Assembly (NCBI GenBank): GCA_027449025.1
Contig: DAIDMK010000030.1
Coordinates: forward strand, 1 to 34,658
DNA: 34,658 bases
Reading direction: 5' to 3'
Origin: Lutibacter sp.
GTDB lineage: Bacteria > Bacteroidota > Bacteroidia > Flavobacteriales > Flavobacteriaceae
Shown: positions 29,429 to 34,658 of the stretch, piece after piece
Layout of the letters: each line of letters starts with the position of its first letter
How positions within the stretch are numbered: position 1 is the first letter of the stretch
Translations under genes and position numbers: made by a program
Notes under the pieces: model-generated
The model's input: the letters and a program-made list of their open reading frames with translations, nothing else
What the model was told of the DNA's origin: nothing
The model's database searches: none

Positions 29429-30523
29429 TTGAAAACGAAGACAAATTCATTATCAACACTAGCACTCCAGAAGTTTAAAAAAAATACTGCTGGAGTGTTT
29501 GCTTTTTGGTTTGTTATTTTATGCGCTTTGGCAGCCATATTTGCTTATGTTTTAGCACCCGATAACAGCAGCAATGCCAATCAGATGCATCTGGAAATTC
29601 ATTCTAAAAAACCTGGTTTTGAAGTTTTAATGTTGACCATTCCATCTGAAAAAACAATCGAACAATCATTCTTCAACACTGTTTTATTCGGTAAAAAAAA
29701 TCAAAAAACTGAAATTCCAATTTCAAATTACAGCATTTCCACTACCAAATTAACCATACATACCTATACCGAAAACAATGCGATAAGTTTGACAAAAACA
29801 TTTCCGCTTTCAAAATTTCAGGGAAAGGACATGTCAACCTTTATTAAAACAAAAAAATTCTATTTAGGAACCGATAAATACGGAAGGGATTTGTTAAGCA
29901 GAATGTTAATTGGCACAAGAATTTCATTTTCCATAGGATTTATTGCTGTTTTCATTTCCTTGGTCATTGGTCTTTCCATTGGCGCCATTGCAGGCTATTT
30001 TGGCGGAAAAATTGATGCGTTTATCATGTGGTTAATCAACATTACCTGGTCAATTCCCACACTGCTTTTGGTAATTGCCATCACCTTGGCTTTGGGAAAA
30101 GGATTTTGGCAAGTTTTTATTGCAGTTGGCTTAACGATGTGGGTTGAAGTTGCACGGGTGGTGCGCGGACAACTTATCAGCGCAAAGGAAATGCAATATG
30201 TGGAAGCTGCAAAAGCATTGGGGTTTTCAAACTTCAGAATCATTTTTAAACATATTTTACCCAATATTATGGCACCTGTGATTGTGATTTCGGCTGCAAA
30301 CTTTGCCAGTGCTATTTTAATGGAAAGCGGCTTGAGTTTTTTAGGAATTGGCGCCCAGCCGCCAATACCTTCTTGGGGCGCTATGATTAAAGACCATTAC
30401 AGTTATATTATTTTAGGAAAAGCTTATTTGGCCATCATTCCCGGTTTGGCCATTATGAGTTTGGTGATGGCATTTATGCTTATTGGTAATGCCCTTCGTG
30501 ATGCATTGGATGTAAAAAATTAA
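29429..30523 (+). CDS. OppC/DppC-type ABC transporter permease
   Basis: This is an inner-membrane permease of the binding-protein-dependent family for peptides or nickel-type substrates. It probably starts at a TTG, since no ATG fits the N-terminus and the TTG-started sequence (MKTKTNSLSTLALQKF) begins just before TM1. TM1 (about 24-44) is followed by an unusually long non-membrane stretch of about 100 residues before the conserved LGTDKYGRDLLSRML. The remaining five TMs follow. The EAAKALGFSNFRIIFKHILPN loop that docks the ATPase is intact. No permease partner, ATPase or binding protein is adjacent, so it must work with subunits encoded elsewhere. Its last 78 bases have a decayed copy at 34242-34318. 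Confidence 0.88.
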   Translation: MKTKTNSLSTLALQKFKKNTAGVFAFWFVILCALAAIFAYVLAPDNSSNANQMHLEIHSKKPGFEVLMLTIPSEKTIEQSFFNTVLFGKKNQKTEIPISNYSISTTKLTIHTYTENNAISLTKTFPLSKFQGKDMSTFIKTKKFYLGTDKYGRDLLSRMLIGTRISFSIGFIAVFISLVIGLSIGAIAGYFGGKIDAFIMWLINITWSIPTLLLVIAITLALGKGFWQVFIAVGLTMWVEVARVVRGQLISAKEMQYVEAAKALGFSNFRIIFKHILPNIMAPVIVISAANFASAILMESGLSFLGIGAQPPIPSWGAMIKDHYSYIILGKAYLAIIPGLAIMSLVMAFMLIGNALRDALDVKN

Positions 30524-30600
30524 ATCAAAAATTAGGCAAAAGCTTCAAAAAGCTGATTTTTGTTTAAATTTTTTGATGCTTTATATATAAATCTTATATA

Positions 30601-30608
30601 TATTTTTG
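30601..30608 (+). promoter_or_regulatory. -7 element (TATTTTTG) for the secreted HU-repeat gene
   Basis: This matches TAnnTTTG, about 96 bases before the ATG at 30705. A TTTG at 30572-30575 is 25 bases upstream. An inverted repeat (30612-30631) begins immediately after the element, about where transcription should start. Confidence 0.45.
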
Positions 30609-30611
30609 TAC

Positions 30612-30631
30612 ATTGTAACTTATATTACAAT
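30612..30631. promoter_or_regulatory. Inverted repeat ATTGTAA-N6-TTACAAT, possible operator
   Basis: A perfect 7-bp inverted repeat with 6-base spacer overlaps the predicted start of transcription. The half-site TGTAA is shared with the array before the permease gene (29398-29419). Confidence 0.35.
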
Positions 30632-30704
30632 ATAAAACCCTTAATGCTAACGTATTAATTTTTTTTAGCCCCTTTATTGAAATACTAACTACAAACAAAA
30701 TGAT

Positions 30705-32645
30705 ATGAGAAATACAATTTTTTTTATTTTTTTTATGTGTGTGATACCTATTGGTTATTCACAAATTTCAAAGCTAGAAGAGTCAGATAGTTTAGAAATA
30801 TCTGATGGATTAGATAACGATTGTGACAGTGATACCTCTACAATAAAAAGAATGAATAAAGGAGAGTTGATTGACGCTATTGCAAAAGATGTAGGATTAT
30901 CTAAAGCTGATGCCGGAAAGGCCTTAAATGCCATAACAACTAATTTATTGACTTCTTTTAAACTACAGGCCGGTCCTATATTTATACTTAGTCCTCCTGA
31001 TCCTGGTGTTTCAGGTACTGAAAGAACTGGAAGGAATCCTCAAACGGGGGCAACAATTAAAATTGCAGTTAAAAAAGTAGCGAAATTTAAAGCTGGAAAA
31101 GCTTTGGCTGATGAACTGGTAAATAGAATTGATAATTCTCAAAACCCACAAGGAGATGATGGCGAAATTCAAATGAATAAAGGAGAACTAATTGATGCTA
31201 TCGCTAAAGATGCTAATTTAACTAAAACGGATGCGGGTAACGCATTAAATGCTTTTATAGCTATTCTATCGGAAGAATTAAACAATGGAAATTGCGTCAA
31301 ATTAATTGTTCCTGTTGCTATCAATAAAGGAATTAGAGAAGGCGGAAAAACAGTTGATCCGGGAGTAGATGAAATTTTAAAAAGAAAAGCTCCTGGCAGG
31401 ATTAAATATTCTAATATTACCTTAGAAAGAGGTTATATTGATGATGATTCTGACGATGATGGACTATCAGATAGTTTAGAAATATCTGATGGCATAGATA
31501 ACAATTGTGACAGTGATACTTCTTCAACAAAAAGAATGAATAAAGGGGAGTTGGTTGATGCCATCGCTAAAGATGCCGGCTTATCTAAGGCTGATGCCGG
31601 AAAGGCCTTAAATGCCATAACAACCAATTTATTGACTTCCTTAAAAAAGGATGAATCTATACAATTAATTGATTCACCTAATGTTTCAGACAATGATAAA
31701 ACAATAAAAAATCCTCAAACTGAGGCAACCATGAAATATGATGGTAAAAAATTGGCCGATACCGTTAAAAGAACAGACAATTCTCAAAACCCACAAGGAA
31801 ATAACGACAACATTCAAATGAATAAAGGAGAACTAGTTGATGCTATTGCTAAAGATGCCAATCTATCTAAGACGGATGCCGGCAAGGCTTTAAATGCTTT
31901 TATGGCCAATATGTCTAAAGAAATAAACAATGGAAATTGTGTGAAATTAATTGTTCCTGTTGCTATTAATAAAGGAATTGGAGAAGATGGAAAAACTGTT
32001 CTACCTAACAATAAAAATCAACAAGGTTACACAAAGGAATCAGCCATGATATTTGTTAAAGTAGATGAGACTTCCTTAAGAAATTCAAATACAAAAATCC
32101 CTAATAATAAGCTTGTTCAAGACAATGATAAAAGAATGTCTAAAAGCACTTCACAAGATAAAGCAAGAACACTAAGAACCGCGGATAAAAGATACAGTGA
32201 TATACGCGATGAAAGAGTAAAAGCTAGGGCACTAAGAACGGCGGACAAAAGATATAGTGAAAAAATAAGTGGACATCGTGTGAGAGATAAGGAAAACACA
32301 ATTCAGATTGATAAGCCTGTACAAATAACAACTGAAGAAAATAATAAGGTAAATCCTTCGAATAATTTAAGTACTAGATTTTTAAAAGCTCAAAATAACG
32401 AAACCATCCAAATATCAAAAAGTAAATTCCAATTAACAGCCCCACTTTTAATAAGCAATAATCAAAATGAACTCATTGTTTATAATTGGGCGGTTAAAAA
32501 TAAAATAAAAAATAAAGTAGCTAAATTTACTGGAAAAACCATTAATTATGATTTTGATGTTAGTGGCACTTATGAAATTGAAATAATACCCGTAATTAAC
32601 AACAAAAATCTAAATCCATTTCATGTCAATATTATTTGTGATTAA
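30705..32645 (+). CDS. Secreted protein with four HU-type DNA-binding modules
   Basis: This is a 646-residue protein I do not recognise as a described family. The signal peptide is at 1-20 (cleavage after GYSQ). HU-like modules begin at Met50, Met157, Met278 and Met372, each with MN-K-GEL-(I/V)-DAIAKD followed by LSK-x-DAGKALNA or close variants. Module 1 (50-139) is the most complete: it keeps the DNA-binding arm RTGRNPQTGATIKI with the Pro of the RNP motif and the C-terminal helix VAKFKAGKALADEL. In module 3 the arm is eroded (KNPQTEATMKY). Modules 2 and 4 share a different second half (NGNCVKLIVPVAINKGI). A TSP3-type calcium motif DxDxDGxxDxxE lies at 248-259. An Arg-rich region with a 20-residue repeat (RTADKRYS) spans 476-530. 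A PKD/Ig-like domain (GTYEIEIIPV) ends the protein. The peptidylarginine deiminase gene follows 12 bases later, so they are probably one operon. Its role in binding extracellular DNA is inferred. Confidence 0.85.
   Translation: MRNTIFFIFFMCVIPIGYSQISKLEESDSLEISDGLDNDCDSDTSTIKRMNKGELIDAIAKDVGLSKADAGKALNAITTNLLTSFKLQAGPIFILSPPDPGVSGTERTGRNPQTGATIKIAVKKVAKFKAGKALADELVNRIDNSQNPQGDDGEIQMNKGELIDAIAKDANLTKTDAGNALNAFIAILSEELNNGNCVKLIVPVAINKGIREGGKTVDPGVDEILKRKAPGRIKYSNITLERGYIDDDSDDDGLSDSLEISDGIDNNCDSDTSSTKRMNKGELVDAIAKDAGLSKADAGKALNAITTNLLTSLKKDESIQLIDSPNVSDNDKTIKNPQTEATMKYDGKKLADTVKRTDNSQNPQGNNDNIQMNKGELVDAIAKDANLSKTDAGKALNAFMANMSKEINNGNCVKLIVPVAINKGIGEDGKTVLPNNKNQQGYTKESAMIFVKVDETSLRNSNTKIPNNKLVQDNDKRMSKSTSQDKARTLRTADKRYSDIRDERVKARALRTADKRYSEKISGHRVRDKENTIQIDKPVQITTEENNKVNPSNNLSTRFLKAQNNETIQISKSKFQLTAPLLISNNQNELIVYNWAVKNKIKNKVAKFTGKTINYDFDVSGTYEIEIIPVINNKNLNPFHVNIICD
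30783..31355 (+). repeat. Internal duplication, unit 1 of the HU-repeat gene
   Basis: This encodes residues 27-217: the acidic SDSLEISDG linker, HU modules 1 and 2 and the SQNPQG linker between them. It corresponds to 31467-32000. Large blocks are close to identical at the DNA level, such as the 31 bases around AAGGCCTTAAATGCCATAAC. Confidence 0.85.
31467..32000 (+). repeat. Internal duplication, unit 2 of the HU-repeat gene
   Basis: This encodes residues 255-432 and repeats unit 1 with the same order of linker, HU module, linker, HU module. It is about 13 residues shorter because the DNA-binding arm of the first module has been trimmed. Confidence 0.85.
32160..32260 (+). repeat. 60-base tandem repeat coding an Arg-rich segment
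   Basis: Two copies of about 41 bases (32160-32200 and 32220-32260) with a period of exactly 60 bases encode KAR-x-LRTADKRYS twice. Eleven arginines occur within residues 477-527. Confidence 0.85.
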
Positions 32646-32657
32646 AAATAATATTAT

Positions 32658-34073
32658 ATGAACCTAAAGCTAAGTATTCCATTACTTATTTTCTTTTCTT
32701 CTTGGTTTGGTTATAGTCAAACTTCAAATCCAAGACATCCAGCAGAATGGGAAGAAATAAGCAGTGTTGTTATGGAGTATCGTTATTTTATAAATTCGAA
32801 TATAAATTGGGATGAAGTTTTAGATCCCTATATAAAAACAGCCAAAGCTTGTATTGAAGAAGGTATTAATTTATATATTATAAAACCCTCTAACAACAGT
32901 AAATATCCTTATCAAGCCAATTTAGATTCCATTTTTAAAAATAGAAATATAAGCTCACCTTTTGTGCATATTATTTCAAAAGATACCATTTTAGGTTCTT
33001 TCCCTTGGGTAAGAGACCACGGCATGAATTTTGTTTATAAAAACGATGTTGAGCAAGCTTATTTGTATAACTTTTCTAAAGATTATACCGGAGATTTTAT
33101 TGCAAATAGAATGCGTTACCCAAATGCTATTATAACACCAAAAATAACTAGTGAGTATTACACAGACGGTGGTAATTTTTTAACCGACGGGCACGGAACA
33201 TTTAATATTGCTGCAACTGATCTCACAGAAGATATACCAACCAGTTTAGAATTTGAATATGATTACTTTTATCAATATTTCGGGATACGAAAAACATTAA
33301 ATGTACTTATCCCTTTTGTTCATATTGATTATTTTTTAAAATTAATTAACGAAGAAACTGCCATTATTTCTTATATTCCAAATAATAATTATGACATATC
33401 AATAGATGAATATTATGACCATCAATATTATATAGACCAAGCTGCAATTTCAATATCCCAATATTTAAAATCTGCTTATGGCAGAGAGTTAAAACTTATT
33501 CCAATACAAAATGCACCAACAACTTATGATAAAAAAACTGAAACTATTTTAGGTACTTCAAAAGCAACTTATACGAACTCTTTAATTTTGAATAAAACTG
33601 TTTTGGTGCCTCAATATAATATGGCTCCTTTTGATTCATTAGCTTTAGATACTTATAAAAAAGCAATGCCCGGATATAAAATAATTGGCGTAAATTGTAA
33701 ACACTACGCGCAATTTTCGGGTGCAATACATTGCTTAACACATGAAATTTATGCCGAAAATCCTATTTATATAAAACACAAATGGTATCAAGGGATTGAG
33801 AAAAATAATGAGAGTGGATTTCCTATAAGTCTGGTTACAAAATCAAAAGACGGCATTCAAAAAGCAATTTTATATTGGAAAACTAATGAAACTATGCCCT
33901 ATCAATCTCTTTTTATGCAAAATATTGAAAATGATGTTTTTGAAGCCATTATTCCTCCTGCAAAAAGTGGAACAACAATTAATTACTATATAAAAATTCA
34001 AAATAATAATGGCAAAGTAATGCACAAGCCAATGGTTGCTCCGAAATATTCCTACAGCTTTACGGTTGAGTAA
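32658..34073 (+). CDS. Secreted peptidylarginine deiminase, PPAD-type
   Basis: This is a guanidino-modifying enzyme of the PAD_porph family, predicted to turn arginine into citrulline with release of ammonia. The signal peptide is at 1-21 (GYSQ-TSNP), the same type as in the upstream gene. The catalytic residues of the Porphyromonas enzyme are recognisable: Asp120 (FPWVRDHG), His222 and Asp224 (VHIDYFL), Asn307 (TYTNSLI) and Cys359 (GAIHCLTH). The TDGGNFLTDG loop is at 169-178. Arg151 and Arg153 (RMRYP) match the pair that in PPAD binds the carboxylate of a C-terminal arginine. An Ig-like domain (about 385-471) ends the protein without a clear type IX sorting tail. Agmatine deiminase is the alternative, but that enzyme is cytosolic and has no signal peptide. 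It lies 12 bases after the HU-repeat gene. Confidence 0.88.
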   Translation: MNLKLSIPLLIFFSSWFGYSQTSNPRHPAEWEEISSVVMEYRYFINSNINWDEVLDPYIKTAKACIEEGINLYIIKPSNNSKYPYQANLDSIFKNRNISSPFVHIISKDTILGSFPWVRDHGMNFVYKNDVEQAYLYNFSKDYTGDFIANRMRYPNAIITPKITSEYYTDGGNFLTDGHGTFNIAATDLTEDIPTSLEFEYDYFYQYFGIRKTLNVLIPFVHIDYFLKLINEETAIISYIPNNNYDISIDEYYDHQYYIDQAAISISQYLKSAYGRELKLIPIQNAPTTYDKKTETILGTSKATYTNSLILNKTVLVPQYNMAPFDSLALDTYKKAMPGYKIIGVNCKHYAQFSGAIHCLTHEIYAENPIYIKHKWYQGIEKNNESGFPISLVTKSKDGIQKAILYWKTNETMPYQSLFMQNIENDVFEAIIPPAKSGTTINYYIKIQNNNGKVMHKPMVAPKYSYSFTVE

Positions 34074-34406
34074 TCTATTTATAACTAAATTTTTTCCAAG
34101 CTAGAAATATAATTAAAGATTTTACTGTATCGAGTTTATAGTATAATCAACTGGCAATAATTAAATGCTGAAGTGCGATTCAATTTATATCCAGCAAGCA
34201 ATTCTAAAGAAAATTTTAAGCCCTTGTAGAAAATTTCAACTTTTGCCATTATGAGTTTGGCGATGATTCTGTGTTGACAGGAAATATTTTACACGATACT
34301 TTGGATGATAAAAATTAGGTAACCAATAATAATTTCAACCTTTTTTTACAATCGCTTTATTAAAACAAAAGTTAAGCCCTAAATTAGCACTTTCAAAAAA
34401 AACTCA
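34074..34406. other. Intergenic region with a permease-gene remnant
   Basis: Between the deiminase stop and the thioesterase start there is no intact gene. The only structure I can support is the decayed permease 3' end at 34242-34318. The 168 bases before it are AT-rich without a recognisable signal. Confidence 0.7.
34242..34318 (+). pseudogene. Decayed copy of an OppC-type permease 3' end
   Basis: This aligns with 30446-30523, the last 78 bases of the permease gene, at roughly 70% identity with one missing base. The first 21 bases (GCCATTATGAGTTTGG-x-GATG) differ at only one position. After the frameshift the reading SVLTGNILHDTLDDKN-stop parallels FMLIGNALRDALDVKN-stop, and the stop falls at the same place. 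It is too short and broken to be functional. Confidence 0.65.
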
Positions 34407-34646
34407 ATGAATTTCGAAATTACCTTCAAAACAAAATGGTCGGATTTTGACCCAAACCGCCATATGCGACATACGGCGTATAACGATTATGCAGCAGAAG
34501 TTAGGGTGCGCTTTTTTCAAGAACACGGACTTTCCATCAACGAATTTGCCAAACTGAATATTGGTCCAATTTTATTTAAAGAACGTGAGTTCGATATAAA
34601 AAAGCATAAAATATTTGGAAAAGAAGAGATAGTTTTTTATATTTAA
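34407..34646 (+). CDS. 4HBT-fold acyl-CoA thioesterase, truncated or frameshifted
   Basis: The N-terminus is a hotdog-fold thioesterase: FKTKWSDFDPNRHMRHTAYNDYAAEVRVRFF is the conserved region with the catalytic Asp and the long helix (about residues 7-37), followed by NIGPILFKE. The frame stops after 79 residues, whereas relatives run to about 130-150. Removing one T from the run at 34632-34637 would keep the frame open to the window edge (EEIVFIFNVLK), so a frameshift, natural or from sequencing, is possible. The window ends 12 bases later, so the gene cannot be judged as a whole. Confidence 0.6.
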   Translation: MNFEITFKTKWSDFDPNRHMRHTAYNDYAAEVRVRFFQEHGLSINEFAKLNIGPILFKEREFDIKKHKIFGKEEIVFYI

Positions 34647-34658
34647 TGTGTTGAAAAT

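Follow-up and report, generated by a model that had tools for sequence, protein, structure and literature searches.

What could a protein assembled from pieces of the nucleoid protein HU be doing behind an export-type start? The question is raised by a gene of a marine Lutibacter sp. that lies in a 34,658-nucleotide stretch of DNA, referred to here as the window, in whose list of open reading frames a 646-aa frame, open for 646 codons, occupies exactly positions 30705-32645. A preliminary description had read its product as four HU modules following a signal peptide, with a TSP3 motif and a PKD-like end, and had suggested a purpose-built organiser of extracellular DNA. The gene is real, unusual and under selection, and it is built from known parts.

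HU pieces behind an export-type start

The N-terminus, MRN-TIFFIFFMCVIPI-GYSQ, is signal-peptide-like (residues 1-20, 30705..30764; this and all features of the window given below lie on the + strand), with a hydrophobic h-region whose top 11-mer scores 2.96 on the Kyte-Doolittle scale, and with GYSQ as its end. The claim of an export-type start ahead of the HU-derived segments was borne out in this form: the ortholog L008 (Lutibacter sp. STE_174; 645 aa, 84% identical to the window protein in alignment A2) has it too, another is found in the ortholog of genome G011, and the deiminase encoded downstream begins comparably. Judged by these sequence features, the window protein is probably exported.

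The gene halves are tandem duplicates: repeats of 237 nt and 180 nt, 85% and 89% identical and spaced by 645 and 684 nt, make up two units, each running from an acidic MopE-like motif through a full-type HU module to a half HU module. The first unit comprises a MopE-like motif (30765..30851; PF11617 stretch 28-44, below cut-off), HU module 1 (HU1; 30852..31121) and the N-terminal half of HU module 2 (HU2; 31173..31349), which consists of hairpin and first strand and matches PF00216 over profile positions 1-45. Between the units lie a KAPGRIKYSNITLERG segment (31350..31445), which has a weak likeness to tail-tube gp19 (PF06841, E 0.0089) and is found again in sister exported-type proteins, and a TSP3-like stretch that, together with the second MopE-like motif, spans 31446..31535 (assigned from the sequence; PF11617 again below cut-off). 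The second unit continues with HU module 3 (HU3; 31536..31763) and the N-terminal half of HU module 4 (HU4; 31815..31994; PF00216 profile 1-44). It is followed by a conserved GYTKESAMIFVKVDET stretch, by an Arg-rich array of RTLRTADKRYS repeats (32115..32324) and by a PKD/Ig-like C-terminal domain (32379..32642) placed by AlphaFold and Foldseek. The other two named elements held up as well: the TSP3 motif is visible by eye as DxDxDG, beside MopE-like motifs that score 23.5 bits over two stretches of the 646-aa protein, below the Pfam cut-off of 27, and the PKD-like end is modelled with a pLDDT of about 87 over residues 561-646, for which the Foldseek matches are PKD and fn3 domains (the best at E 1.5e-3, with no match reaching 0.001).

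In Pfam, the 646-aa protein matches PF00216 with an E-value of 4.8e-42 and 142.5 bits in total over five stretches, against a gathering score of 22.4; a whole-genome scan gives 38.7 bits to HU3, 37.4 and 21.9 to a split HU1, 34.7 to HU2 and 33.9 to HU4. Modules 1 and 3, on whose match the HU assignment had been made to depend, therefore both belong to the set that matches. HU-HIG (PF18291) clears its cut-off of 26.2 with 48.3 bits, well short of the 142.5 bits of PF00216, and so is not the best description. Two ordinary HU genes are present in this genome (108.7 and 100.9 bits against PF00216 in the whole-genome scan), so the exported-type HU gene is an extra.

The complete HU fold of two helices, saddle, arm and C-terminal helix is reached by none of the modules in the window protein, and is nearly reached in L008. 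HU1 retains its helices and the arm RTGRNPQTG; when its DNA is compared with that of L008, insertions of 7 nt and 2 nt jointly keep the frame, and the saddle strands between them are replaced. HU3 likewise has intact helices, and its alignment with L008 reveals that the RTGR consensus of the arm and the last helix are lost. Summed over modules, the NCBIfam HU-beta model gives L008 a score of 194.8, which passes the cut-off of 157, whereas the window protein, at 131.2, fails it. Of the four proposed HU modules, the homology to PF00216 stands in every segment and the folded domain in none, since HU2 and HU4 are halves, the saddle of HU1 is replaced, and the arm and C-terminal helix of HU3 are degraded. 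The window protein is made of HU pieces, not of four HU domains.

With the HU/IHF (DNABII) proteins of PF00216 it shares, besides this homology, an intact helical hairpin and the arm motif of module 1; it differs from them in its export-type start, its fusion of several copies per chain, its two half modules and its degraded saddle and C-terminal helix, and the stand-alone cytosolic format of about 90 residues is not matched by a 646-aa frame with a signal-peptide-like start. The DNABII proteins of biofilms are ordinary HU/IHF proteins found outside cells. These, for example those of nontypeable H. influenzae, resemble the window protein as HU material outside the cytoplasm, but the window protein has an export-type start and is a multi-part fusion. 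Among the matches listed in an open-access library, which leaves out subscription papers, we found no description of an exported or multi-HU protein or of the bead strings; six of the papers contain the phrase 'clades of the HU', presumably in citing a 2017 survey of the HU superfamily.

AlphaFold, run on the window protein with 20 alignment rows and also on the G011 ortholog, modelled the former with a mean pLDDT of 52.1. Its confident parts are four two-helix hairpins (residues 52-63 and 67-86 in HU1, 159-170 and 174-193 in HU2, and 374-385 and 389-408 in HU4, among them), whose 10-residue pLDDT means are 67-86 along most of their length, a short strand near 441-452, and the last 86 residues. 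Structure prediction thus bore out the hairpins and the PKD domain, but not the saddles and arms of HU1 and HU3, where pLDDT falls below 50. HU is absent among the 50 Foldseek matches listed for the window model. Shallow alignment may be the cause of the low confidence outside the hairpins and the PKD domain.

As to location, the N-terminus of the G011 ortholog is predicted to form an OmpA/NspA/OmpX-like barrel (pLDDT 74.6 from six sequences; OmpA E 2.5e-8, TM 0.46/0.39), and its HU modules come after the barrel. In OmpA, the region after the barrel is periplasmic. By analogy with OmpA topology, the HU modules of the G011 ortholog would sit on the periplasmic side, as in OmpA-like outer-membrane proteins whose C-terminal part is periplasmic. 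The window protein differs from these in lacking the barrel and in having no match in Pfam to an OmpA-type peptidoglycan-binding domain; being without a barrel, it may be periplasmic or released. The T9SS sorting domain TIGR04183 has no match at E-values up to 1 in the three multi-HU proteins and four island deiminases searched, while all three control PADs match it, two above the cut-off and the third below.

Constraint on the hairpins

We estimated omega by part from one ortholog pair, window versus L008, with 95% intervals from a bootstrap over codons and with gene conversion possible. The four hairpins yield 0.129 (0.066-0.239; 149 codons), and the saddle, arm and alpha3 of HU1 and HU3 yield 0.692 (0.363-1.248; 89 codons), a value raised in part because the frameshifted stretch inflates it; the two intervals do not overlap. 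The second halves of HU2 and HU4 give 0.158 (0.031-0.522), the Arg array 0.158 (0.058-0.355) and the PKD domain 0.296 (0.102-0.929), and over whole genes omega is 0.256 for the HU protein, 0.231 for the deiminase and 0.064 for OppC. The hairpins are therefore under strong purifying selection, and the saddle and arm parts are not. In HU, helical hairpins make up the dimer body. Constraint is thus greatest on the dimerisation hairpins and least on the parts that contact DNA.

This distribution of constraint speaks against the idea that this genome encodes an organiser made specially for extracellular DNA. So does the occurrence of HU pieces, single or out of fold, in other exported-type proteins: L008 7473-7856 encodes a 127-aa protein in which a signal-peptide-like start is followed by HU helix 1, HU arm, HU C-helix and a KKGYNHYKA bead, fragments too broken up to fold as HU, and tandem HU C-ends occur in G034 and a short HU start in G037. 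The extracellular part of the proposal also fits poorly with the missing T9SS sorting domain and with the barrel order of the G011 ortholog, which would put HU modules in the periplasm.

A deiminase partner and an Arg-rich array

Twelve base pairs downstream of the HU gene lies a PAD_porph deiminase gene (32658..34073; PF04371, E 7.8e-30) with a signal-peptide-like start and an Ig-like domain. Its closest PDB relatives are structures of the P. gingivalis enzyme PPAD (4yt9, 5ak7, 6i0x), to which the Ig-like domain aligns too, ahead of agmatine deiminases. With reference to the catalytic residues of PPAD given in an excerpt of PMC4893104, H222, D224, N307 and C359 align to His236, Asp238, Asn297 and Cys351. 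D120 was matched to Asp130 by the WxxD spacing from Trp, and all five residues are invariant in alignment A1, a full catalytic set of Asp, His, Asp, Asn and Cys. Agmatine deiminases also belong to the enzyme family, so a small-molecule substrate is conceivable for the window enzyme, on which the agmatine-deiminase models are weak (TIGR03380, 38.5 against a cut-off of 381.8; NF010070, 37.9 against 483).

The NRPRPxDD loop, which from our own alignment we take to be the site of PPAD Arg152 and Arg154, is missing in all four island deiminases and present in all seven others aligned (of 21 non-island loci). As excerpted from PMC4893104, these arginines contact the C-terminal carboxylate of the substrate, and internal arginines are proposed to be poor PPAD substrates. 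The arginine pair for the C-terminal carboxylate appears to be absent from the island deiminases, and we read the loss of the loop as opening the enzyme to internal arginines. The partner gene therefore resembles PPAD in its PAD and Ig-like domains and its catalytic residues; it departs from PPAD in the loop aligned to the C-terminal-Arg-binding arginines, in the T9SS sorting domain, which was not found, and in being encoded beside an Arg-rich exported-type protein.

The two genes keep company. In a sample of 38 genomes of the genus, the multi-HU gene is found in four: that of the window (G000), G011, G023, which contains L008 (these three by PF00216), and G034, whose contig includes no more than the C-terminal part. 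The same four genomes hold a close-form deiminase (57-100% identity; distant hits of 28% and 29% in G020 and G035 were set aside), and the two genes are adjacent in all four. G017 also matched, but only by a PKD-like end within another large protein, and a fragment in G021 proved to be an ordinary HU/IHF-like start. Being present in 4 of 38 genomes, the multi-HU gene is dispensable for the genus at large.

Per 60 residues, the four deiminase-paired proteins hold 11 (the window protein), 11, 19 and 14 arginines, against 3-8 in eight of nine sister mosaics without a close deiminase (G027 left out, G006 and G017 incomplete or with gaps); of the 25 other frames of at least 150 aa in the window, 23 have 2-7.

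Beyond the genus sample, PF00216 was searched for in 397 family genomes, three of them Lutibacter; 395 have a match, the count per genome never exceeds four outside the genus, and the 21 non-genus genomes with three or four matches, when rescanned, contained no frame with two. The HU2-bead-HU3 segment of L008 has matches in 56 of the 397, the specific segment occurring only in the window's genome and the remainder being frames of 76-150 aa that resemble ordinary HU. A wider contig scan returned, among the matches listed, L008 and one ordinary gammaproteobacterial HU.

The explanation we favour, tentatively, is that of an exported, fast-changing mosaic of the Lutibacter cell envelope, self-associating via HU hairpins and encoded with a PPAD-like deiminase that acts on the Arg array. 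As modules arranged in tandem, the hairpins would let the protein self-associate, either inside one chain or from chain to chain, and could so give rise to a scaffold located in the periplasm or at the outer membrane. A polyanion (DNA, lipopolysaccharide or a wall polymer) might be what the Arg array binds, and by turning internal arginines of the array into citrulline the deiminase would turn that binding down. Adjacency and composition are what link enzyme and substrate, and they suggest the Arg array as the candidate substrate.

A variable site and competing readings

The gene stands at a site whose content changes between genomes. Its left border is an oppC-like permease gene (29429..30523), and its right border the start of a gene that we take to be thioesterase-like (34407..34646), at the contig end. 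Past GPILFKE the latter frame diverges from its relatives; this and its stop at 34646, close to where the contig ends, may be an assembly-end artefact. At a threshold of E 1e-80, 24 of the 38 genomes have an oppC ortholog and 14 have none. The oppC and thioesterase-like genes are directly adjacent in 11 of the 24, and in five (G012, G035, G010, G032, G017) a pair of a barrel-type and a large exported-type gene follows oppC, the thioesterase-like gene lying outside the stretch examined in G032 and G017. Elsewhere oppC is followed by the multi-HU/deiminase pair (G000 and G023), by another mosaic and then the contig end (G025), by other genes (G019 and G008), by contig ends (G015 and G034) or, in G022, by a signal-peptide-like start and six copies, the first partial, of the 15-residue bead AQDHNASRSNTTSSK. 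In G011 the pair also precedes lipoprotein-like and thioesterase-like genes, with other large exported-type genes upstream. Lutibacter genomes vary in the exported-type genes that they carry between oppC and the thioesterase-like gene (window 29429-34658, L127-L148).

Several features of these relatives deserve record. The G022 bead frame (L142, G022:C1, 1499-1846, reverse complement) carries a bead also seen in other Lutibacter exported-type proteins. In G011, L040 7445-10951 has two 85-residue Cys/Lys-rich units (KKECLENGGSFW...C; 100% and 98% to one query) flanking the HU modules, and no Pfam family could be clearly assigned to this unit. A gp19 origin of the KAPGRIKYSNITLERG bead was considered and is doubtful: the bead recurs in the exported family with a likeness too weak to establish homology (E 0.0003-0.14), the true gp19 of G022 is poorly alike, and the attribution is weakened further by L083 (G105), where a lipoprotein-like protein from a different family has a string resembling the bead, NPGRTEYGNITLKK. 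A flavobacterial-type promoter pattern at 30573 (presumed consensus, spacer widened to 25) was given no weight, there being 10 matches per strand in the window.

A phage, plasmid or viral source of the gene was also rejected, the whole protein having no relative in viral contigs. The L008 HU module matches 32 phage and 1610 plasmid records, all below 60% identity; among the matches listed (12 phage, 12 plasmid), every annotated one is an HU gene and the others have no annotation, and the best viral-contig match, L149, is an ordinary 91-aa HU adjoining genes that resemble transposition genes. Because the module is about equidistant by identity from the seven Flavobacteriales HUs compared (55-61%) and this viral HU (58%), no donor can be named.

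Such a site could hold a hypervariable surface mosaic that phages or competitors have moulded, in which HU, gp19-like and other beads are stuffing without bead-specific function. The differing stretches after oppC in the 24 genomes and the short beads that sister proteins have in common, in varying order, are consistent with this, but stuffing would hardly account for hairpins under strong constraint, for an Arg array constrained likewise (omega 0.158, 0.058-0.355) or for the pairing with a deiminase whose catalytic residues look intact, and we regard this reading as doubtful.

Unlikely, too, is a DNA binder outside the cytoplasm, extracellular or periplasmic, whose HU modules bind matrix DNA or help to hold DNA for uptake or digestion. 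The PF00216 segments and the arm RTGRNPQTG of HU1 agree with it in the window protein, but both full-type modules there are damaged in the DNA-contacting parts, which evolve near-neutrally. The relatives make a better case. In L008 the HU modules lack little (79.2 bits over profile 1-88 and 76.3 bits over 1-89) and have a Pro-bearing arm, and that protein's passing of the HU-beta cut-off argues for DNA binding there; one G011 module reaches 78.4 bits over profile 1-78, also with a Pro-bearing arm, but is without the last helix. These better modules in two orthologs make a DNA-binding ancestor credible. According to excerpts of PMC8289736, Lutibacter populations incorporated carbon from added DNA, and MAGs and/or related genomes contained genes for extracellular nucleases; an excerpt of PMC5219744 gives a biofilm as the source of L. 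profundi LP1. The L008 and G011 modules, the assimilation of DNA carbon and the biofilm origin of L. profundi keep this reading alive, against which its confinement to 4 of 38 genomes also counts. By sequence, DNA binding is possible above all in the relatives with near-intact modules, and for the marine bacterium's own protein an envelope scaffold is more likely than a DNA organiser.

More improbable is an exported histone-like HU scaffold whose Arg-rich tail would be citrullinated by a co-exported PPAD-like enzyme freed of its C-terminal-Arg restriction, switching the grip on extracellular DNA or envelope, a bacterial counterpart of histone and arginine deiminase. A decaying chimera with no function left in the window's lineage, as the compensated frameshift in HU1 and the lost end of HU3 might suggest, is highly improbable given a frame open for 646 codons, an overall omega of 0.256 and the intact catalytic residues of the partner.

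What adds most to the picture is that constraint has moved from the DNA contacts to the hairpins and that the deiminase partner is conserved. Since PPAD prefers C-terminal arginines, a relative acting on internal arginines is testable in vitro; should the Arg array prove to be modified by the deiminase, this enzyme would have a dedicated bacterial protein substrate, which we know for no other protein-arginine deiminase. The self-associating envelope mosaic that we favour would show a nucleoid protein turned into envelope building material.
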